Shown: in pieces, positions 1,937-64,000 of the stretch | Numbering within the stretch: position 1 is the first letter of the stretch | Layout: each line of letters starts with the position of its first letter | Source of the DNA: Calliopum simillimum | Lineage: Eukaryota; Arthropoda; Insecta; Diptera; Lauxaniidae | Assembly: GCA_951812925.1 (NCBI GenBank) | Contig: OX638368.1 | Location: 81,388,909 to 81,452,908, forward strand | Direction: 5' to 3' | Length of the DNA stretch: 64,000 nt | Notes under the pieces: generated by a model | Told to the model about the DNA's origin: nothing | Seen by the model: only the letters and a program-made list of their open reading frames with translations | Databases searched by the model: none | Made by a program: the position numbers and the translations under genes

Positions 1937-3463
1937 CACGGTGATACGGAAGAAAATTATTTACGTATAAAAGTGTCGCTAAAATCGGTTGATATGAAAA
2001 AATTTGTTTTTTTTTGCTGATTCAGAATCTGTTTTTAGCGAAATCCTATCAGATCCCTTTCAAAAGTTATACTAAAAATACCTTTTAATAAGTATTTTTG
2101 GAATTCTTCAATTAAAAATAAGTTGTTACATTTGCATAAGGTTACGAAGCTTCTGGGAGGTAATAGAAGAGGCTTAGGTTTACAAAAAATTGCAGCCGGA
2201 GGGGGGTCTAAAATGTACACCTAAGGAGTTATAGGGTTAAAACTGATTTTCTGCCACTTTTCAGAAAAAAAAATTTTCTTGGATCACCCTAACGTTTTAG
2301 GGAAAACATTTCTATGGCAAAGTTTTAGCTAATTGTAAAAGCTTTCAGATAGTGTATATGGTTTATAGGGTTTAAAAGGATTTAGCAAAGTTCTGGACCT
2401 TTAAAATTGATATTTTAATTTTTTTTTTCCCCCATTTTTTGACTTTGACGGCCATTTTAGTATGAAAAAGGTCCTATTAATATAGCTTTTTATAATTTTT
2501 TTTGAAATCTTCGTTAAATATCTTTTAATCCGATAGTGCATTTGTCATACCAATTTTTTGATTGAGGTTAGACAACAATACTTTTCTATGTAACACACGG
2601 GTTCTATGTAACACACGGGTTACTCGCATGCGTTGCGCTGCATATGATGTAGTGATGAGTAAACCAAGACCAAGATCAAGACCGAGACCATAGCAGTCTT
2701 GGTCTTGTTCTTGCACATTGTGTATTGGTCTTGGTCTTGCTCATCACTACATCATATGCAGCGCAACGCATGCGAGTAACCCGTGTGTTACATAGAACCC
2801 GTGTGTTACATAGAAAAGTATTGTTGTCTAACCTCAATCAAAAAATTGGTATGACAAATGCACTATCGGATTAAAAGATATTTTACGAAGATTTCAAAAA
2901 AAATTATAAAAAGCTATATTAATAGGACCTTTTTCATACTAAAATGGCCGTCAAAGTCAAAAAATGGGGGAAAAAAAAATTAAAATATCAATTTTAAAGG
3001 TCCAGAACTTTGCTAAATCCTTTTAAACCCTATAAACCATATACACTATCTGAAAGCTTTTACAATTAGCTAAAACTTTGCCATAGAAATGTTTTCCCTA
3101 AAACGTTAGGGTGATCCAAGAAAATTTTTTTTTCTGAAAAGAGGCAGAAAATCAGTCTTAACCCTATAACTCCTTAGGTGTACATTTTAGACCCTCCTCC
3201 GGCTGCAATTTTTTGTAAACCTAGGCCTATTCTATTACCTCCCAGAAGCTTCGTTACCTTATGCAAATGTAACAACTTATTTTTAATTGAAGAATTCCAA
3301 AAATACTTATTAAAAGGTATTTTTAGTATAACTTTTGAAAGGGATCTGATAGGATTTCGCTAAAAACCGATTCTGAATCAGCAAAAAAAAAAACAAATTT
3401 TTTCATATCAACCGATTTTAGCGACACTTTTATACGTAAATAATTTTCTTCCGTATCACCGTG
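1937..3463. repeat. Large near-perfect palindrome (foldback element F1)
   Basis: The left arm (about 1937-2680) is repeated inverted as the right arm (about 2720-3463). Termini are CACGGTGATACGGAAG and its complement. The arms are about 740 bp and differ at only a few positions by eye. The ~40 bp centre is built of short GGTCTTG/CAAGACC units. Each arm holds the same short 61-codon frame as a mirror image, which is a by-product of the symmetry and not a gene. It lies about 1.3 kb upstream of the inferred capa start. No clear target-site duplication was found. Confidence 0.9.
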
Positions 3464-48921: not shown

Positions 48922-50658
48922 CACTAGTTTACAAATGATTAAAATTTTTTTTCCCAGCGAATGCCGTTACTCATTTTATATGGAAAATGGGCTGCTGATT
49001 CCGAAAATCGCATTTCTTTTTTTTTATTTCGTGTCGTTTTCGAGATATCGGTCATTTTCGGTTTTTGGACCAAAAAAAAAAGATAGTTCCACTTAAATAC
49101 AAATATCTCAAGAACCAATGTTTGTATTGAAACAAATAATATGTCATATTAAAAATAATTAAATTACCTACAAATAATACACACATCACTTTTTGGCTGG
49201 TTTGTTAGTTTCGATGAAATAAATTGATTTCTGAAAAAAAGAGTATATTTTTCCGAAAAAATTACACAAATGTCTAAATCATCTGCAGATTTTTACAGGA
49301 AAAAAAAATTTTAAAAATCATTTTGTATTTTTATATCATAGTCTATAAATTTGTTAGGCAAATAAAATGCTATTTAAGAAAATCGATGGAAAAATGCAAA
49401 AGTTGTATACAATTCATTGATAAGTTACCAAAATGCGATTTTCCCTATTTTTCCGTTTTTTTGTAATAAACTGTTCGAAAATTTGAAACTTTTTGTAAAA
49501 GAAATTAGAAAATCCAAAAAATTCTTAAAGAAGGCATTAAAAGAAAAAACTCGTGCCTCGCCGTTTTTCTCTAGCACGTCAGATTTTTTTTTAATCGATT
49601 TTTGAAGTTTTTTAATCCACTGTACATGAAAAAACAGAATTAACGCATTCTTGTGTTAAATCGATGAATTTAACTATATGATCCTTACATCTGAGGTGTA
49701 TCATGTCTTCAGCAAACTTATGCAGGATACTACGCGGAATATTTTTGTAGACAATTTTAACCCTCTCTAACCCCCACATGTAGGTCAAAATGACCTTCAT
49801 GTGGGGATCAAAATGACCCACATGTGAGGGTTTTAGAGGGTTAAAATTTTCTACAAAAATATTCCTCGCAGTATCCTGCATAAGTTTACTGAACACATAA
49901 TACACCTCAGATGTAAGGATCATATGGTTAAATTCATCGATTTAACACAAGAATGCGTTAATTCTGTTTTTTCATGTACAGTGGATTAAAAAACTTCAAA
50001 AATCGATTAAAAAAAAATCTGACGTGCTAGAGAAAAACGGCGAGGCACGGGTATTTCCTTTTAATGCCTTCTTTAAGAATTTTTTGGATTTTCTAATTTC
50101 TTTTACAAAAAGTTTCAAATTTTCGAACAGTTTATTACAAAATAACGGAAAAACGCATTTTGGTAACTTATCAATGAATTGTATACAACTTTTGCATTTT
50201 TCCATCGATTTTCTTAAATGATATCTTATTTTCTTTACAAATATAAAGTCTATGATACAAAAAAAAAATATTATAAAAAAGTTATGCCTTCTTGTATAAA
50301 TTTGAAGTTGAATTTGATTTTTTCTTAATTTTTTCGAAAAAAAAAATTTTTTTTTTTAGAAATCAATTTATTTCACCGAAACTAACGAACCAACCAAAAA
50401 GTGATGTGGATGTCATTTGTAGGTAATTTAATTACCTTTAATATGACATATTACTTGTTTAAATACAAACATTGGTTCTTGAGATATTTGTATTTGGAAT
50501 GGAACTATCTTTTTTTTTGGTCCAAAAACCGAAAATGACCGATATCTCGAAAACGACACGAAATAAAAAAAAAAAAATGCAATTTTCGGAATCAGCAGCC
50601 CATTTTCCATATAAAATGAGTAACGGCATTCGCTGGGAATTTTGGCTGTAAACTAGTG
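48922..50658. repeat. Foldback element F8 (about 1.74 kb)
   Basis: Ends are CACTAGTTTACAAATGATT (48922) and its diverged complement, GTAAACTAGTG at the edge (ending 50658). The arms are about 860 bp with the centre at about 49795. The centre repeats CCCACATGT/ACATGTGGG words and TCAAAATGACC. Arm similarity is high except for small indels. Mirror-image 60-70-codon frames in the arms are by-products. Partial copies lie at 42178-43736 and about 37955-38080. Confidence 0.88.
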
Positions 50659-55721: not shown

Positions 55722-55938
55722 TGTCGGGTTTACCTCTTTATTTTGAATGTGGTTTTCCATTTTAAATAATTTTCAATTTATTTTTATAGAATTTATTTAG
55801 TTTTTAAGTTCTTTTCTTTTTCGATTTTTCAAATTAATAATCTCAAATAATTTTCAAGTCATATTTTTACATTCTTGCTGAAGTTCACAATTTATTTTTA
55901 TTCGTCAGTGTTTTCTTCGCAAGTACTATTATACGACA
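55722..55938 (-). mobile_element. 3' LTR of the inner Ty3/gypsy-type element (217 bp)
   Basis: On the - strand it starts TGTCGTATAATAGTACTTGC and ends GTAAACCCGACA, so the ends are TGTCG...CGACA. By eye it is identical to 60573-60789. It is short for this superfamily. Within it lie an ATG and 12 following codons that are the first codons of gag in the 5' copy. Confidence 0.93.
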
Positions 55939-56575
55939 CGGCCATCCTGCCAGCTCGCACGTCCTCGTGCGCGTAACCTGAAAGTAAATATGGTTCTATA
56001 CAGTATCAAGAAGCTTTTCTCGGTCAATCCTGACCAAAATACTTTTTTTTACAACACTCTTATTTTTATTGAGAACAAATAAAGTTGTTAACAGATTTTC
56101 AAAAACTTAATTCAAAACATTGACAAACTTATTCATTAACAGTCATCCGAAGGAAAGTCCCACATTACTATTTACTAAATCAATCGCAATAAACAATCTA
56201 CAATGCTCAACCTTGTAACTTCCACCCAGTTACAAAAATAATTTATCACTTCCAATAAGTGATAACTCAATACTTCAGATTCAACATCACCACCACTAGG
56301 TGATTTAAGTACCTCCATCCGGTACTACACATTCAATATTACCTCCATCCGGTAATATAAGTACCTCTATCCGGTACAACACATACAATATCACCTCTAG
56401 TGATATTCGTACCTCTATCCGGTACTTCACACACAATATTACCTCCATCCGGTAATATTATCTTACAATACAATTTTTAAAATATCGCTTCCATCCAGCG
56501 ACTAATCACTACTTCTAACCAATGTTTTTTTAATATATTGAGCATTGCTTATTGCATAACATTTTAATTTCTCAC
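55939..56575 (-). other. 3' untranslated part of the inner element with a hairpin array
   Basis: Between the pol stop and the 3' LTR there is no coding frame. Positions 56213-56501 hold ten short hairpins with different stems and mostly 7-base loops (listed separately). Just before the LTR, CGCAC-GTCCTC-GTGCG (55956-55971) is another hairpin. No classical long polypurine tract precedes the LTR; the nearest purine-rich words on the - strand are GGCAGGATGG and GAGGACG. Confidence 0.75.
56213..56501 (-). repeat. Array of ten covarying short hairpins
   Basis: Hairpins, given as stem-loop-stem on the + strand: TTGTAACT-TCCACCC (56213-56235); TTATCACT-TCCAATA (56243-56265); ATCACC-ACCACTA (56286-56304); AGTACC-TCCATCC (56308-56326); ATATTACC-TCCATCC (56336-56358); GTACC-TCTATCC (56361-56377); AATATCAC-CTCTA (56387-56407); GTACC-TCTATCC (56409-56425); AATATTACC-TCCATCC (56435-56459); TCGCT-TCCATCC (56485-56501). 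Every right stem is the exact complement of its left stem. Stem sequences change between units while pairing is kept and the loop stays close to TCCATCC (GGATGGA on the element's sense strand). Confidence 0.93.
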
Positions 56576-58957
56576 TTAATTTTCATCAATATCTGTAGGG
56601 ACATGACCTTCGGGCATTCTTTTAATACGATCATGTGCATATTTATAAGTCCGATTACAATTAAGTGCCTTTAAAACATAGCGGTCTCCGTCCAACACTT
56701 CTACTATTTTAAATGGGCCCTTATACTTAGGATCCAGCTTTGTTTGATGCCGTTCCTCATTTTGCAACAAAACAAAATCACCAACACAAAATTTATTAAC
56801 TTTTGCTTTGTTACTATCAAACCTCTTTTTGTCATAGATGGCATTCTTATTCATGTTAGTAACAGCTGCAGTACGAACTTCATCGATATCAACTATAGGT
56901 TCGTTATCGTCTGATAGCATGATGTCTAATGGTCTTGCTATTCTGCCAATAAGCAACTCAAGAGGACTGGACTTTGTAACTCGATTTTGAGTGCAATTTA
57001 AAGCCAATTGAACATCAGGGATGGCATTCTGCCATGAACGGTTACTAGTTTCTACTCCAGTAAGCATATTTTTTAGAGTGCTCATAACTCGTTCAACTTG
57101 TCCGTTAGCGCGAGAGCTACCTGTAGCAATCAAGTGCAATTTAATGTTGTGTGATGTACAGAAGTCACAAAACTCTCTACTGGAAAAACAACGACCTTGA
57201 TCAGCAATGATTCGGTTAGGAGCGCCAAATAATGAAATGCCTTGCTTCAATGCTGCTATGCTACTAGAAGTATCAATATTTAGGGTGTGATGTAATAAAA
57301 CATACTTTGTGAATGCATCAATCAAGACGAAAATGTATTCTTTTTTGTCATTCTTTCCACTTAATTTTCCAGTTGCATCGATATGCAAAGTATGCCAAGG
57401 AATGGCTACTTTTGGTATTGAGTGTAATTCAGCCTGAATTTTTCCAGAATGTGATTTCGAAATTTTACAAGTGATGCAGTTATCGACAAATTTTCTAACA
57501 AATTTAGACATATTTTCAAACCAGTATAACTCATAGACTTTTTCCAAAGTTTTTTCATAACCCAAATGCATCAACGACTCATGTGTGTTATTGATGACTG
57601 ACCACCTAAGCGATCGAGGTACTATTGGCAGGCAGCGAGTTTTGCCATTTCGCTGTATCTTACGATACAAAATGCCTGAACGAAGCTCGTAAGTTTTAGC
57701 AACATCTTCACTGAGTCTTTTCTCATTAAAATCGGCCACTAGTTGTGAAATTTCACTATCCCGTTGTTGTTCTGCTATTAACCAATTTTCTGACAATTCA
57801 GTAATATCAACACGCTTTTGTTCTACTTTCTGAAAAATTTTGGGATATGAAGGCAAAGGATTTCTGGAGAAAAAGTCAACATGGCACATGCGGTTACCAT
57901 TTCTATAAATAATATCGAAGTTAAAAGCTTGTAAGAAAGCCCACCATCTATGAACCCGAGGAGTGAGATCCAACTTCTTTCGAGATGACTGTAACGCGTT
58001 GCAATCTGTGACAACAACAAATTTGCGTCCATGTAAATAATGCCGAAAGTGTTTAATGGCATTTACAACCGCAAGAGTTTCCAACTCATAAGAATGATAT
58101 TTGGACTCAGCGGATGAAGTGCGTCTGCTATAATACGCGATTACACTAAACTTGTTGTTGGAATCTTTCTTTTGCATAAGTACAGCACCATAGCCAATTG
58201 CACTTGCATCTGTATGAAGCTCTACTGGACAATCAGGATCAAAAATTGTTAAAACTGGCTCAGTAGTCAAAATTGATATCACTTTTTGCCTTACAGCCTC
58301 ATGGCTAGGTTTCCAATCTATTTTTCGATTACCTGACGTAAGGGCATACAAAGGAGTCATAACTTGGGAAAATTTTGGAACAAACTGTCGAAAATATGAA
58401 GCCAGTCCAATAAATTGACGTAACTGAGTTACAGTTTCTGGTGGTGGTAAGGCCGTTAACGCCTCTATCTTTTTAGGGTTAGGCTTTATTTGACCACCAC
58501 TAATTTCAAAACCTAGATACTCCACCTTTTGTTTGAGAAAAGAGCACTTTTTAAAATTTAAATAAAAGCCCTTACCAGTAAGCACCTCAAGTACAATTCT
58601 CAATCTTGTTAGTGCTTCGTCAACACTGGAAGCTGTAATAAGAATGTCATCCATATAAACAACGACAAAAGTATTGGTGAGATTTCCTAAAGCTTTAATA
58701 ACTGAGCGTTGAAAAACTGCTGGTGCATTCTTGAGCCCAAAAGGCATAGCAAGGTACTCATATTGGCCTTCAGGAGTTACAAAGGCTGTGTACTCAATAG
58801 AATCAGAATGAACGGGGATTTGGTGAAATCCAGAAGCCATATCAAGCGTTGTAAAATAATGAGCACCATGCAATCTGTCAATTTGATCAGATATCAGGGG
58901 CAGCGGAAATCTGTCCGAAATTGTGTTATCGTTAAGTTCGCGGTAGTCTACACACAT
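56576..58957 (-). CDS. pol: pol of the inner element: RT, RNase H, integrase
   Basis: This 793-residue frame starts inside the RT, because the real start lies upstream in the gag-protease frame and one base shift separates them. RT blocks: MCVDYRELN, TTLDMASGFHQIPV, FGLKNAPAVFQR and catalytic VYMDDIL (about residue 105). RNase H: HTDASAIGYGAVL (about 250) and YELETLAVVNAI. Integrase: an H-H-C-C zinc domain ending CITCKISKS (about 490) and the DDE triad in LHIDATGKL, IIADQGRCFS and RANGQVERVM (about 520-630). The C-terminal region with KYKGPFKIVEVL follows. It is related to Ty3/gypsy elements, perhaps the mdg3/micropia branch; that placement is a guess. All catalytic residues are present. Confidence 0.95.
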   Translation of the reverse strand: MCVDYRELNDNTISDRFPLPLISDQIDRLHGAHYFTTLDMASGFHQIPVHSDSIEYTAFVTPEGQYEYLAMPFGLKNAPAVFQRSVIKALGNLTNTFVVVYMDDILITASSVDEALTRLRIVLEVLTGKGFYLNFKKCSFLKQKVEYLGFEISGGQIKPNPKKIEALTALPPPETVTQLRQFIGLASYFRQFVPKFSQVMTPLYALTSGNRKIDWKPSHEAVRQKVISILTTEPVLTIFDPDCPVELHTDASAIGYGAVLMQKKDSNNKFSVIAYYSRRTSSAESKYHSYELETLAVVNAIKHFRHYLHGRKFVVVTDCNALQSSRKKLDLTPRVHRWWAFLQAFNFDIIYRNGNRMCHVDFFSRNPLPSYPKIFQKVEQKRVDITELSENWLIAEQQRDSEISQLVADFNEKRLSEDVAKTYELRSGILYRKIQRNGKTRCLPIVPRSLRWSVINNTHESLMHLGYEKTLEKVYELYWFENMSKFVRKFVDNCITCKISKSHSGKIQAELHSIPKVAIPWHTLHIDATGKLSGKNDKKEYIFVLIDAFTKYVLLHHTLNIDTSSSIAALKQGISLFGAPNRIIADQGRCFSSREFCDFCTSHNIKLHLIATGSSRANGQVERVMSTLKNMLTGVETSNRSWQNAIPDVQLALNCTQNRVTKSSPLELLIGRIARPLDIMLSDDNEPIVDIDEVRTAAVTNMNKNAIYDKKRFDSNKAKVNKFCVGDFVLLQNEERHQTKLDPKYKGPFKIVEVLDGDRYVLKALNCNRTYKYAHDRIKRMPEGHVPTDIDEN

Positions 58958-60611
58958 TCGGTCCGAGCCATCTTTTTTTTTTTACTAAGAGTATTGGGCT
59001 TGCAAACGGAGATGAACTGGGTCGAATTACGTTGGCATTTAAAAGTTCACTAACTCTTTCACGAACAACTTTACGCTCCTCGACGCTCAAGCGATAAGGT
59101 CGCCGACATACAGTTTTATTTGGGTCTTTAAGTCGTATTTGCATAGGCGTAGTATCAGCTCGAGTTTTTGGAATACCGTTTATAAAATTATCTTTAAAAG
59201 GAGTTAATATATTAATTAACGTTGCTTTTTGACTTTGAGGAATATCTGATTTGAGTTGATCAAAGTTTATTTCATTAGACAAAGTAACGCCACAAACATT
59301 AACTACTTCTATTTTAAAAAAGTGTAATTTATCTGATGTCATTTGTACTGCTAAGCCTTGGCTCAAAATTTCGCGCCCAATCATAATATTATGACGCAAG
59401 TAATATTCTGGTAAAACATGAAAAAGAACTTCAATATGGATGCCATCCACTTCAATCAAAGCTAAGATCTGTATAGTGCTATTAACGCGAGTTTGTCCAA
59501 TACCAGTCATAGTAACAATATTATTATAACGCTTACCACTAAATTTACAAGCTACTGAATCTTTTATAAGTGAGCATTCTGCTCCTGAGTCATAAATAAA
59601 ATCAAAGTTCTCACCAGAGTGGACTAAAGTCCCAGCAGGTGCGTTTACAGCGCAAAAATCCACTCGCCGCTCAGTACTGTTACCACCATCATTCTTGTTG
59701 AGTGATCTCGGACAACTTGACGCATAGTGACCTAGTCCTCGGCACTTGAAGCAGGTAACATTTGATTTGACAATAGTTCTTGGACATTCTTGGCTTGTTT
59801 TTTCATACATCTTCACACTGTCTCTCGAATGTCTGCACTGCATCGCTTTATGCCCTTGCTTTCCACAGTTGTGACACTTTATATATGGAACTGCTGATGT
59901 CTTGAATCTCTTGAAATCAGGTGCACTGGCATTACTCTGCATTGTAGTTCTCTTAAGAAATGACATTGCCTTTAATTCCTGTTGTAGGCGATTTCTTGAG
60001 TCAATTTCAGAGGTAAACGCCAAACGATGAACTCGGGGCTCGAACTCAGAAATATGAGCCAACAGAGTAGACACAGCTATCTGCTCAACTGATAAGTTTT
60101 TCCATCGGGACATCAATGACGTCATCTTAGTAGCAGCATACGCAGCAAGGGACTCACCTTCTTCAGGTCTACCGCTATTCATATTTATCAAAAATGATGC
60201 TGCAGTCTCAGGACAATCATATCTTGCGATGAAAATATTTTTAAATTCACTCCACGTCATTCCCGGATATGAAACTTGCGACAACCAGATAGATGCCTGT
60301 CCCTTGAGTGCTCGGCTGAGCACAATCATCAACGGTGCACTTTCGAGTGGTTTGGAGGCAATGCACATGTCAGCCATCGAAATCCAGGCTCTTGCATCAG
60401 CACTTTCTACTCCTGGATTGAATTCCGGCAGTTGCAAATTAGAGCTTTCAGGTTCCTTAATGGCCTGCACAAGCGCTAAAAAATTCCTGTTTTGCTGCTC
60501 AAGCAATAACGACCATTTTTCGTCATTCGCTCCGTTAACTTCTGATGAGCGTTGGGCCAATCCCACTTCTGATGTCGGGTTTACCTCTTTATTTTGAATG
60601 TGGTTTTCCAT
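58932..60611 (-). CDS. gag: gag-protease and start of RT of the inner element
   Basis: This 559-residue frame starts at an ATG inside the 5' LTR (60609-60611). Residues 1-13 lie in the LTR. The gag region follows, with ARAWISMADMC and FKNIFIARYDCPE in the capsid-like part, then two CCHC zinc knuckles, CHNCGKQGHKAMQC and CFKCRGLGHYASSC (about 245-300). The protease has YDSGAECSLI (about 337-347). The frame continues into RT (PYRLSVEERK, SSPFASPILLVKKK) and then leaves it at a run of 11 A (58973-58983). With 10 A the frame would join the next pol frame. Gag, protease and pol thus form one coding unit apart from that single base. The next Met in frame is only near residue 78, so the LTR start is the likely one. 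Confidence 0.92.
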   Translation of the reverse strand: MENHIQNKEVNPTSEVGLAQRSSEVNGANDEKWSLLLEQQNRNFLALVQAIKEPESSNLQLPEFNPGVESADARAWISMADMCIASKPLESAPLMIVLSRALKGQASIWLSQVSYPGMTWSEFKNIFIARYDCPETAASFLINMNSGRPEEGESLAAYAATKMTSLMSRWKNLSVEQIAVSTLLAHISEFEPRVHRLAFTSEIDSRNRLQQELKAMSFLKRTTMQSNASAPDFKRFKTSAVPYIKCHNCGKQGHKAMQCRHSRDSVKMYEKTSQECPRTIVKSNVTCFKCRGLGHYASSCPRSLNKNDGGNSTERRVDFCAVNAPAGTLVHSGENFDFIYDSGAECSLIKDSVACKFSGKRYNNIVTMTGIGQTRVNSTIQILALIEVDGIHIEVLFHVLPEYYLRHNIMIGREILSQGLAVQMTSDKLHFFKIEVVNVCGVTLSNEINFDQLKSDIPQSQKATLINILTPFKDNFINGIPKTRADTTPMQIRLKDPNKTVCRRPYRLSVEERKVVRERVSELLNANVIRPSSSPFASPILLVKKKRWLGPNVCRLPRT

Positions 60612-60789
60612 TTTAAATAATTTTCAATTTATTTTTATAGAATTTATTTAGTTTTTAAGTTCTTTTCTTTTTCGATTTTTCAAATTAATAATCTCAAATA
60701 ATTTTCAAGTCATATTTTTACATTCTTGCTGAAGTTCACAATTTATTTTTATTCGTCAGTGTTTTCTTCGCAAGTACTATTATACGACA
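60573..60789 (-). mobile_element. 5' LTR of the inner Ty3/gypsy-type element (217 bp)
   Basis: It has the same sequence as 55722-55938 and TGTCG...CGACA ends. TATA follows at 60790-60793. No standard primer-binding site starts within the first bases after the LTR; a TGG occurs 8 bases in (TGGGATTGGCCCAACG), inside the gag coding sequence, but it was not matched to a tRNA. Confidence 0.92.
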
Positions 60790-62504
60790 TATATATATTT
60801 TTTTTTCCCGTGTATTTTATATATGTACATATTTTAGTTATCCAAAAAGTTATATTTCATTTATAACTGCTGATTTGGGTTTTCAATATTATCCCAACAG
60901 TCTTTATGACATTATTCGCTTCCTATATATGTATATGCATTATCTTGCATACAAATATATGTGGTGTTTTATTTGTATTTTTTTTTTTATATATATATTT
61001 CTCTATACTAGCATTTGAATACATACTTACATGTTGCATACAAATCCCATATTACTTTTAATTTCCCTGTAACTAATCCCTTAGTCATTTATATATGTAT
61101 GCGCTGTCCGTCGATTCTGCATTTGAAAGTTTCATGTTTCAATTGCAGTTGCTTACATTGACGCGCACTACTGTCGGTTCTATGTATCTTTTTCTTGTTA
61201 TTTTATATGAAGAAACTAATGCAATTATCTATCGGATGAGGACTAATTCTGTTAAAATGTCCATAGGTTAGCTATACGCAACGTAGTGGACTATCTTTTA
61301 GGTTTTATACTGTTTATCTCATTATATTCTTTTCAAATTTCAAACCGCATGGTTCGGTTAGTCAATGAAAAAATTAATTTTCGATTTTGGCCATAACTAC
61401 TAGAAAATATTTAAATCAAACTAAATTATTCGAAATTATTAAATTATTTAAATTAAGGTAAGTGAAAATTTGTGAGAAAAAAAAAAAAATAAAATTAGTG
61501 GAATCAGGAAACTCAACATTTTCCAATTTTATGTGGTGCGCAGCACGGTACATAGCATATTAACCATGGGGCACCCTTGGTTGGCGTAAGTACACTTAAT
61601 TTCTTCTTGTTAAGACTGCTCGTAACTGTAAAGTTTCTCTCTTCTCCCTCCGAGCAGGCTTCAACCGGCACCCTACTGCAAATGCCAATCCTTAATCTGG
61701 AAGCTTTGACATCTCCAAGCCCCGCAGGAAAATCAATAAGTTCAACTCAAATTTTCGTTTTGTTTCATTATTATTTTTTCTTTCAAAACCTATTAAATAC
61801 TTTCTCTTCTTAATAAACAGGTTTCCTTACATATCCATCTACATGCAGAAATTTCACCATGCCGGCATTTGTTATGTGAGTTTTACTTTCCCCGTTTTTC
61901 CTTTTTTTTTTTTTATTAAAATTAATCTTTTCATCTCTTAAGTATCGAATTTACTGTATTTATGTTATATTTAATTATTTGCAAAAATCAAGGCTTTAGC
62001 GTTTGAAGTTGTGACACCCACTTTCTGTTCGTGTGTCGTCATTCCATATAATTAACGTAACCCTGTGCATAAAATCCTAATTTGTTTACATATTTCAGTT
62101 ATGTTTTAATTTTTCTTTGACTTTTTATATGTCTTTTCCATTTTTACGCAGTTTATCGACTTACCTACGGAATTCCATTCCTTGGGAATGGGGTTGTCTA
62201 CTACTTATTATAGGAAAATTTTCGTCTCTAACAAATGTTCCGTCCTGCGGAATTCATCGCTGAGACATACTCTATATCTTTTACATTAAATTTTTGATTT
62301 TGTTAATTCCTCTTTATCTATTACACTCTCATCTTCTCTATGTTAGATGATTCTAATGTTCCTATATGATTTTTGTATTTTCTAACACTGACAAATGATT
62401 AAATAAGACTTGTACATTTTTTCCCTAACTCAGCATAATATGCTGTTCCTACTTTAATATTTTACCTCTTTACTTCCACAAATATATAAATATACTTTTT
62501 TGTT
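60790..62504 (-). other. 3' non-pol region of the outer LTR element, part nearer pol
   Basis: The sequence after the integrase stop shows only short frames. TATATATGTATATGCATTAT-type words occur near 60927 and again near 55493 on the other side of the nested element. No domain was recognised. Confidence 0.55.
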
Positions 62505-64000
62505 TTATGCATTGAATAATTTTAGCAAATTGTTATGAATTTTCTTCTTTTTATTGTTAATAATAATTTCTGTAGTTACTGGCCCTGTGACATTTGTAAC
62601 TTCGTAAGGTCCTACCCAAATTTTGGAAAACTTATTTTTCTTTGTTTGATTTTTCATTAACACTTTGTCCCCTATTTTGAATTGCACTGGATTAGTGGAG
62701 CTGTCATATTGTTTTTTAGACAACTCCTTGGCCTTATCTTGATTTTGCTTTACTAATTCATGTGACCTTTGAATTTGAAACTTTAATACCTTCGATTGAT
62801 CATCCACGTTGTACACGGGTGTACATTTTCTTTTTAAATTTGTTGGCATTTCAAAATTAAACCCGTAAAGTGTCTGAAAAGGTGTTTTCTTTGTTGAAGT
62901 GTGTACTGTATTGTTATGTACATGCATGGCTGAAGCCAGCCATTGATCCCAATTAGAACCATCTTCTTTTGCAAAACTTCTCAAGTATTCTGCTAACGGT
63001 CTGTGACTTCTTTCTAATGAGCCATTAGCTTGCGGGTGATAAGGTGTAATGTGTAATTTTTTAATTCCAAGCATCTTACACGTATTTGAAAACAATTTTG
63101 AAGTGAAATTCGTTCCATTGTCAGTGACTAATATTTTCGGAATATTGTATCTGGCAATGATTTCATTATAAAATTGCTTTGAAACTGTGCTAGCTTCTGC
63201 GTCAGGGATCGCTACACACGACATGTATTTAGAGTGATCGTCTTGAAAAGTTAAAATGTATTTATTTCCTGATGTAGTCTCTGGCAGTGGCCCTACTATA
63301 TCCATGTAAACTTTGTCAAATGGACGGCTTGGTGTATCCGTTAAAACCATGGGCATTTTTGTTAATTTGGAACTTTTGTTTGCTTGGCATTTAATGCAAG
63401 CCCTTACGTAGTTTTTCACGTCTTTTTGCATTCCTGGCCACTTGAACTGTTTTCTAATTCGCATTAAAGTTTTAACTGCCCCCTGATGACCTCCAAGTGG
63501 GCTATCGTGAAAATCTTTTAATATTGTCTTTATGTCTTGTGGATTGCTTAGTATTGTGACATTTGGTTTAGCTATTTCCTCTGCAGGAGTGTCCTCATCA
63601 ACTTCGTTCGATACTTCTATTTGGTCATGGTCATTAGTTTTAGTCTTAGATCTTGTTTGTACTACAGTTATTTGCGTGTTTGTTTGTGGTATTCTACTAA
63701 GCGCATCAGCATTTAAATTCTTTTTCCCTGGTTTGTATATGATTTCGAAATCATATTCCGACATTTTATGTCTAAATCTAGCTAAACGTGAAGTTTGATC
63801 TTTTAAATTTGCTATTCCACGTAGTGGTTGATGATCTGTGAAAATTTTAAAATGTCTGCCAAGTAAATAAGCTCTAAAATTTTTGGTTGCCCAAACTATT
63901 GCAAGAAATTCTTTTTCAATGGTAGAATATCTCTTTTCGGTTTCACTTAACGCTCTACTAGCGAAAGCTACCGGGTTATCCTTACCAACTTCCCCTTGCG
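62505..64000 (-). CDS. pol: pol of the outer Ty3/gypsy-type element: RNase H and integrase, partial at window end
   Basis: The frame is open from the window edge to the stop at 62505. The edge part reads as RNase H: VAFASRALSETEKRYSTIEK, then FKIFTDHQPL. The tether DALSRIPQ follows, then the integrase zinc domain (HDSPLGGHQG ... CIKCQANK) and the DDE core with MDIVGPLPE, VTDNGTNFTS and HPQANGSLERSH. The C-terminal domain has FKIGDKVLMKN and WVGPYEVTNV. All visible catalytic residues are present and there is no internal stop. Protease, gag and most of RT lie outside the window. The family is Ty3/gypsy; a 412/mdg1-like branch is possible but not shown. Confidence 0.94.
   Translation of the reverse strand, partial: QGEVGKDNPVAFASRALSETEKRYSTIEKEFLAIVWATKNFRAYLLGRHFKIFTDHQPLRGIANLKDQTSRLARFRHKMSEYDFEIIYKPGKKNLNADALSRIPQTNTQITVVQTRSKTKTNDHDQIEVSNEVDEDTPAEEIAKPNVTILSNPQDIKTILKDFHDSPLGGHQGAVKTLMRIRKQFKWPGMQKDVKNYVRACIKCQANKSSKLTKMPMVLTDTPSRPFDKVYMDIVGPLPETTSGNKYILTFQDDHSKYMSCVAIPDAEASTVSKQFYNEIIARYNIPKILVTDNGTNFTSKLFSNTCKMLGIKKLHITPYHPQANGSLERSHRPLAEYLRSFAKEDGSNWDQWLASAMHVHNNTVHTSTKKTPFQTLYGFNFEMPTNLKRKCTPVYNVDDQSKVLKFQIQRSHELVKQNQDKAKELSKKQYDSSTNPVQFKIGDKVLMKNQTKKNKFSKIWVGPYEVTNVTGPVTTEIIINNKKKKIHNNLLKLFNA

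Follow-up and report, generated by a model that had tools for sequence, protein, structure and literature searches.

A row of short hairpins with co-varying stems in the 3' untranslated region of a Ty3/gypsy retrotransposon of Calliopum simillimum

HIV-1 SL3 is a packaging hairpin with exposed purines, and the CCHC zinc knuckles of Gag favour exposed G. Rows of short hairpins with GGA loops are found in bacterial RNAs of the CsrB/RsmY type, which collect many copies of one protein, and among LTR retrotransposons Ty1 has a gag gene that begins inside the LTR. How a retrotransposon selects its own RNA is poorly mapped, and it is there that the array described here matters. In MMTV, a purine loop bound by Gag is described as a packaging signal (PMC8096270). 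For Ty1, the primer binding site lies within the GAG ORF, initiator tRNA-Met serves as the primer and the 5' 580 nt contain the sequences required for packaging; the packaging sequences of Ty elements are said not to have been defined precisely, and a 3' array is not mentioned in the part of that paper drawn upon here (PMC4974528). The plant Ty3/gypsy element Retand carries family-specific repeat arrays of variable length between pol and the 3' LTR, and the words 'hairpin', 'stem', 'secondary structure' and 'packaging' are absent from the main text of the paper that describes them (PMC11963269). In searches of the open-licence PMC literature we found no description of covarying hairpins arrayed in the 3' UTR of a retrotransposon. 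The present work concerns such an array in a window of 64,000 bases of the C. simillimum genome, the window being the whole stretch of DNA that was analysed.

The element and its hairpins

The array is located in the 3' UTR of a Ty3/gypsy LTR retrotransposon on the minus strand (55722..60789). The 3' LTR (55722..55938, minus strand) and the 5' LTR (60573..60789, minus strand) are identical, 217 bp long and of the form TGTCG...CGACA; they were taken from a 218-bp identical direct repeat, the end being placed by the terminal inverted repeat and by the TATA on both sides. TATA flanks the element at both ends, and as the 5' flank is a TA run a target duplication is not sure. The identity of the two LTRs means that the insertion is recent. 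The gag-protease ORF (58932..60611, minus strand, 559 aa) encodes CCHC zinc knuckles (two C-x2-C-x4-H-x4-C motifs by eye, and a Pfam zf-CCHC match), yields a protease match just under the Pfam cut-off and also holds the start of RT, while the pol ORF (56576..58957, minus strand, 793 aa) covers RT, RNase H and integrase. The Pfam matches along the element follow the order RT, RNase H, integrase, which together with the CCHC gag is the Ty3/gypsy arrangement, and the paired TG...CA LTRs and a tRNA primer site by the 5' LTR are likewise those of such an element. The reading frame is split inside RT in the window copy, and a longer open frame exists in other genomic copies. Since gag begins within the LTR (its ATG is at 60611, inside the 5' LTR), the 637-nt 3' UTR is the element's main untranslated space. 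The preliminary description had placed the array in the 3' UTR of an LTR retrotransposon, and its position between the pol stop and the 3' LTR bears this out; the possibility that the array consists of coding repeats was rejected on account of its location after that stop. Elsewhere in the window, a second Ty3/gypsy-like pol reading frame adjoins the element (62500-64000, minus strand, by eye), and two long inverted repeats at 49448-50153 and 1997-3401, with arms 96-97% complementary over 340 and 443 nt, are perhaps foldback transposons.

The array (56213..56501, minus strand) consists of ten perfect hairpins that do not overlap, their stems being 5-9 bp long. All lie on the minus strand, and in the sense orientation they read TCGCT-GGATGGA-AGCGA (56485..56501), AATATTACC-GGATGGA-GGTAATATT (56435..56459), GTACC-GGATAGA-GGTAC (56409..56425), AATATCA-CTAGAGG-TGATATT (56387..56407, alternatively 8 bp with a 5-nt loop), GTACC-GGATAGA-GGTAC once more (56361..56377), ATATTACC-GGATGGA-GGTAATAT (56336..56358), AGTACC-GGATGGA-GGTACT (56308..56326), ATCACC-TAGTGGT-GGTGAT (56286..56304), TTATCACT-TATTGGA-AGTGATAA (56243..56265) and TTGTAACT-GGGTGGA-AGTTACAA (56213..56235). 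That such a row is present, as first proposed, is borne out by comparison with 300 dinucleotide shuffles of 56200-56520, which gave a mean of 0.9 stems of at least 5 bp (maximum 4) against the 10 observed, and a mean of 0.24 stems of at least 6 bp (maximum 2) against 7. A 7-nt loop can be read in all ten hairpins, two of which can close further to 5-nt loops, and no stem of at least 5 bp with a 6- or 8-nt loop was found in the array region; the whole window holds 199 stems with 7-nt loops, ten of them in the array. Within units the arms pair at 50/50 inner positions, and exchanging arms among units leaves 30.8 paired (0/20,000 permutations as high), a test that is partly circular as the units had been chosen by pairing. 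Rfam gave no family at the gathering threshold in the 64-kb window, and over 55940-56576 a single chance-level snoRNA-like match (E 0.18) outside the array.

The loops are less uniform than the preliminary description, which had them fixed near TCCATCC, would have it. On the window strand TCCATCC is exact in 4/10 only and TCTATCC is found in 2/10, the other four being TCCACCC, TCCAATA, ACCACTA and CCTCTAG; on the sense strand the commonest loops are GGATGGA or GGATAGA, and every loop of the window array contains 2-5 G. Loop kissing with a complementary TCCATCC on the element's sense strand was rejected as a candidate, there being no such site. Between 56271 and 56458 the array is a tandem duplication with a period of 52 and 3.7 copies of a two-hairpin unit, and because of this not every hairpin is an independent event.

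Copies, related families and pairing

The array is present at ten places in the genome, four identical and six at 80-92%. These copies (L002-L011) contain 10, 10, 10, 10, 10, 12, 12, 11, 12 and 8 perfect hairpins, respectively, and differ by the gain or loss of whole hairpin units; L006 also contains a fused unit, in which the inner pairs number only four, and L009, L010 and L011 have one wobble or broken stem pair each. Among seven copies, variable sites amount to 3/162 in stems, 7/84 in loops and 9/131 in spacers (Fisher p=0.039 for stem against spacer, 0.034 for stem against loop and 0.79 for loop against spacer), and between the window family (A) and a sister family (B) the differing sites are 12/74 in stems, 15/42 in loops and 38/90 in spacers. 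Loops drifting as fast as their flanks had been named beforehand as an outcome that would refute the structural reading, and to a large extent this is what the loop and spacer counts, among the copies and between the families, reveal. What is conserved in these comparisons is stem pairing and loop length, with loop sequence kept only loosely.

When the genome was searched with pol, 3,166 candidates led to 141 scored places; 3' ends were taken for part of these, and families were sorted by array, 3' end and pol. Besides family A (10 loci, 8-12 hairpins), six other pol-related groups were sorted by 3' end, four with hairpin arrays (D being the least clear) and two without. Family B, at 79% pol identity and with 15 loci by motif, has seven hairpins, the loop being GGATAGA in six and GGAGAGA in one. 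Family C, at 73% pol identity, occupies six places (L034-L039; L072 overlaps L038 and was omitted from the count) and has 106-bp repeats with loops GGTTTTA, AGTGATA and TGTGTTA, 7 nt being the commonest loop length. Family D (L045, L053, L065) has repeats of 84 bp, among the loops of which are TGTGATG and ATTGAGT, and there 5-nt and 7-nt loop readings are about equally frequent. Family G (L062, L063, L069) has loops GGATGTA and GGATTTA and stems like TTATCGCT/AGCGATAG, several hairpin units being damaged in its old copies. Hairpin lists inspected by eye, for part of the loci over the first 1,200 nt of each, gave no array in family E (L041, L047-L049, L064, L067, L073), in family F and its relative H (L050-L052, L071), in eight distant elements at 34-40% (L054-L061) or in L066 and L070, neither of which is assigned to a family. 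A B-type pol is followed in L032 by other DNA where the array would be. The rearranged B-type 3' UTR of L046 (G000:C2:67912900-67914650) has its hairpins repeated three times at 243-nt spacing, a triplication that represents a possible step towards a satellite. Pair counts exclude L032, L042 (in which the array region reads N), L046, L066 and L070. A tree of the last 274 residues joins A with B, then D, C with G, and E with F and H; its deep supports are weak, and the order of array gain and loss is therefore not readable from it. A G+C-rich hairpin, CGCACG-AGGA-CGTGCG (55956..55971, minus strand), adjoins the 3' LTR, and by eye a similar block is found in families B, C, E, F and G (loci L021, L035, L050, L063), with a stem that differs among families yet pairs (CGCACG/CGTGCG, GTCACAC/GTGTGAC, ACACACG/CGTGTGT).

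Six hairpins aligned between families A and B carry the evidence on pairing. Four 3' hairpins with firm flanks form one alignment (A3) and two 5' hairpins with weaker flanks another (A4); their 37 pairs include 5 double changes with pairing kept, 4 one-sided changes and none broken family-wide. The claim that stems change while pairing persists thus stands, by virtue of these double compensatory changes. All 4 one-sided changes give G.U in the sense orientation and A.C in the antisense: two separate A from B cleanly, one is found in every B row and one A row, and one varies within B. The rows of A3 represent 12 of 24 sequences found (the others identical or differing in a T run) and those of A4 8 of 25 (the others identical). 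A full-length MAFFT alignment put the first B hairpin elsewhere, and flank orthology was chosen by eye and then tested; two further double changes, which fall at an alignment gap in the outer stem of the last hairpin, were excluded.

Of the 25 pairs in A3, three changed on both sides, from A-U in A to G-C in B in the hairpin at 56308..56326 and from C-G to U-A in those at 56286..56304 and 56213..56235, and two are Watson-Crick against G.U, among them an A-U in A that is G.U in B at 56243..56265. Pairing is possible in 99.3% of A3 cells, two single-copy cells being unpaired. The covariation score of A3 is 0.175 against 0.109 in shuffles (0/500 as high), and sliding the partner position lowers it to 0.144 at -3 and to 0.051 or less otherwise. 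In A4, with 12 pairs, two changed on both sides (one each in the hairpins at 56485..56501 and 56435..56459, which align with the first and second hairpins of family B), two vary to G.U and one single-copy cell is unpaired; the three unpaired cells of both alignments fall one each in L023, L040 and L033. The count of double-changed pairs was not above shuffles (3 vs 2.5 in A3 and 2 vs 1.7 in A4), only the cell-based scores being so, and this is because A against B is in effect one evolutionary contrast. RNAalifold, with no structure given, returned exactly the four helices of A3. The covariation check that had been proposed at the outset, carried out on other copies and a sister family, came out in favour of pairing. 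In a neutral simulation that assumes 60% transitions and independent sites, 8 substitutions left all 25 pairs standard in 84/200,000 runs. In family C, stem position 4 is A-U in 35 units, G-C in 14 and G.U in 5, with nothing else (54 units, six loci), a count limited to hairpins with three intact inner pairs and in which many units are copies of one another. Judged from these alignments, selection on pairing in the array stems is well supported. The preliminary description had set selection on structure against simple tandem duplication; the former finds support in the pairing kept across families, and the latter accounts for part of the array, namely the 52-bp repeats.

Two further features of the element concern tRNA-Leu. 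The primer binding site, TCAGAAGTGGGATT (60559..60572, minus strand), lies inside the gag frame and is the 14-nt reverse complement of AATCCCACTTCTGA, which by eye is found close to the 3' end of tRNA-Leu(CAA) genes of the same genome. The match omits the last five bases of mature tRNA-Leu(CAA), CCA included, and the primer would thus need trimming or an unpaired end. ARAGORN with introns allowed modelled one tRNA-Leu(CAA) gene, with an intron, in a stretch of L091; without the intron setting it gave no tRNA in L086, L087 or L091, probably on account of that setting. A search for relatives of the pol protein gave 2,165 matches; among the 120 matches listed, 47 have at least 1,300 aa, and 25 of these 47 contain S-[ED]-[VALI]-G within their N-terminal 60 residues (in shuffles, 0.4 on average and at most 3), a motif that may be read as the protein shadow of the translated primer binding site. 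At the other end of the element, CAGGATGGCCG (55939..55949, minus strand) stands directly before the 3' LTR in the same sense as the tRNA-Leu 5' end, and occupies the place expected of the polypurine tract, where there is no clear purine run; as young copies exist, plus-strand priming must work somehow despite this. The sequence CAGRATSGCCG-TGYCG, the break marking the start of the LTR, was observed in the five families checked (the window element, L021, L035, L041, L050), and the exact match to the host tRNA-Leu 5' end before the 3' LTR extends over 11 nt in A and B and 7-8 nt in C, E and F, family B having a second match of 12 nt upstream. Shuffling each block 60 times gave maxima of 8-10 nt, and it follows that only the 11-12 nt matches exceed chance, narrowly so in A; a second tRNA-Leu-like stretch in the window, GGTCAGGATTGACCGAG (56019..56035, minus strand), has an exact match of 8 nt only, within chance. 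These matches raise the question of whether the tRNA-Leu sequence might also serve plus-strand priming.

Outside the genome of the window, relatives of the element were found in none of the viral contigs, genome contigs or phages searched, and the plasmid collection gave three distant matches at 28.6-31.1% identity. The best (L001, NZ_CP087956.1) is a circular record of 5,332 bp, deposited as a plasmid of a Wolbachia endosymbiont of Corcyra cephalonica; it encodes retropepsin-like, RT and RNase H-like proteins, has six scattered 7-nt-loop stems rather than a comparable array, and by its content would seem to be a circularised host retrotransposon rather than a bacterial plasmid.

Acting strand and possible function

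The many short hairpins, drifting but paired stems, mostly kept loop length, loose G-bearing loops and untranslated location together point to a multivalent site for a G-preferring, sequence-tolerant protein. Our tentative reading, held at something short of even confidence, is that the array serves as a docking platform on the sense RNA, most likely for the zinc knuckles of Gag in packaging. The genomic RNA would carry a row of separate short hairpins, each loop exposing G bases; the two CCHC zinc knuckles of the element's own Gag would bind the exposed loop G; and the gathering of several Gag molecules on one RNA would select it for packaging. Both the ligand and the packaging role are here postulated, and as far as computation goes the array is a structured RNA with exposed purines, as a packaging signal should be. 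Counted against this reading are the antisense folding in families A and C, the drift of the loops and the array-less families E and F, as well as the location of known packaging signals, which lie mostly near the 5' end. It is also possible, if rather doubtful, that the array represents a modular 3' packaging code, in which Gag would recognise a variable number of interchangeable hairpins, stems would be free to drift if paired, the unpaired surroundings in the window family would be kept free of C so that the loop G stays exposed, and packaging specificity would evolve by changed loop sets as families gain, lose and rewrite units.

The main rival is docking of a host protein, a role in the cDNA, mutation bias and DNA binding all being weaker. 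The hairpins would in that case act like a CTE, recruiting a host export factor or other RNA-binding protein for the export, stability or placement of the unspliced full-length RNA. We regard this as unlikely on balance. The array does share its place, from the last gene to the 3' LTR, with the retroviral CTE and the IAP RTE; covariation with sense G.U fits, and many copies of one site suit a host protein as well as they suit Gag. However, the loops drift like spacers and differ strongly among families, which would be unusual for a slowly evolving host ligand.

The structure might act in sense RNA or in minus-strand cDNA. Compared with 100 shuffles, the array region has the better fold in either orientation (z -5.8 in sense RNA, -10.0 in antisense, RNA energies having been used in all strand comparisons), and among 67 windows of 150 nt along the element the lowest z falls over the array on both strands. 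The 3' UTRs of four family A copies gave antisense z of -8.3 to -12.1, and family C gave -5.2 and -8.1 against -2.3 and -2.5 for sense; in one copy of family C the drawn hairpins scarcely form in the sense ensemble (probability 0.10 on average). These values, and hairpin probabilities that are higher on the antisense strand in 7/8 tested sequences, would be expected if hairpins in single-stranded minus-strand cDNA steered reverse transcription (through pausing or strand transfer) or protected the cDNA. We nevertheless deem such a role improbable, in that all four of the counted one-sided changes are sense-side wobbles and z is lower for sense than for antisense in families B and D. Array hairpins of family B have G.U and no A.C, G.U and A.C are about balanced in families A and C, and one outer-stem change in L010 is a wobble on the antisense side. 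The unpaired bases of the window array include G at 54/151 (36%) and C at 2/151, one of the two C being able to pair, against C at 38/348 in the remaining 3' UTR (Fisher p=0.0001); the depletion is not significant in families B, C and G and is reversed in D. In family B, all three unpaired C fall within one hairpin that the pairing rule missed (p=0.05-0.08, not significant). On the whole we lean towards sense RNA rather than DNA as the acting structure, a conclusion less well supported than that of selection on pairing.

Slippage and template switching at imperfect palindromes might also multiply hairpins and correct their arms without selection, such that the array would be a mutational by-product. 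The copies do differ by whole units (8-12 hairpins), the fused unit of L006 has but four inner pairs, and in families C and D the array is a plain tandem repeat, of 106 bp and 84 bp respectively. Yet a process of this kind would not readily explain the 7-nt loop common to A, B, C and G, the difference between stems and spacers, the sense G.U or the fact that C is scarcely ever unpaired in the window array, and we hold it to be distinctly improbable. That the array is a set of DNA-level binding sites, like an insulator or silencer within the element, is very improbable indeed: the core GGAT(G/A)GA does repeat at 20-46 bp spacing, and gypsy carries an array of Su(Hw) sites, but a protein that reads duplex DNA would not need both stem arms to change together.

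Comparison with known systems

With a sister family and relatives devoid of the array in the same genome, this short, modular and covarying array would allow Gag-RNA recognition, and the evolution of signals of this kind, to be tested directly. It further suggests that the repeats in retrotransposon 3' UTRs, which are often treated as a source of satellites, can be selected nucleic-acid structures. Among described elements, Retand is alike in having a tandem array between pol and the 3' LTR, matched here by the 52-bp period and a hairpin number varying from 8 to 12; unlike in Retand, the hairpin itself is the repeat unit and its stems covary. The relatives of pol that carry an organism name are insects (among the 120 matches listed, most without such a name), which does not place the element in the plant Retand lineage. 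Ty1 has, like the window element, a primer site in the gag ORF, and differs in its primer tRNA (Met vs Leu). The likeness to CsrB/RsmY is one of geometry alone, the regulators being unrelated. The CTE and the IAP RTE likewise place structured RNA downstream of the last gene and ahead of the 3' LTR, and differ from the array in having fewer, larger stems with defined internal loops and no row of ten hairpins. With retroviral packaging hairpins such as the MMTV purine loop, the array has in common short stems with unpaired purines and a CCHC Gag encoded by the same RNA; whereas those hairpins are one or few and lie near the 5' end, the present ones form a row at the 3' end, of 8-12 in family A and seven in family B.
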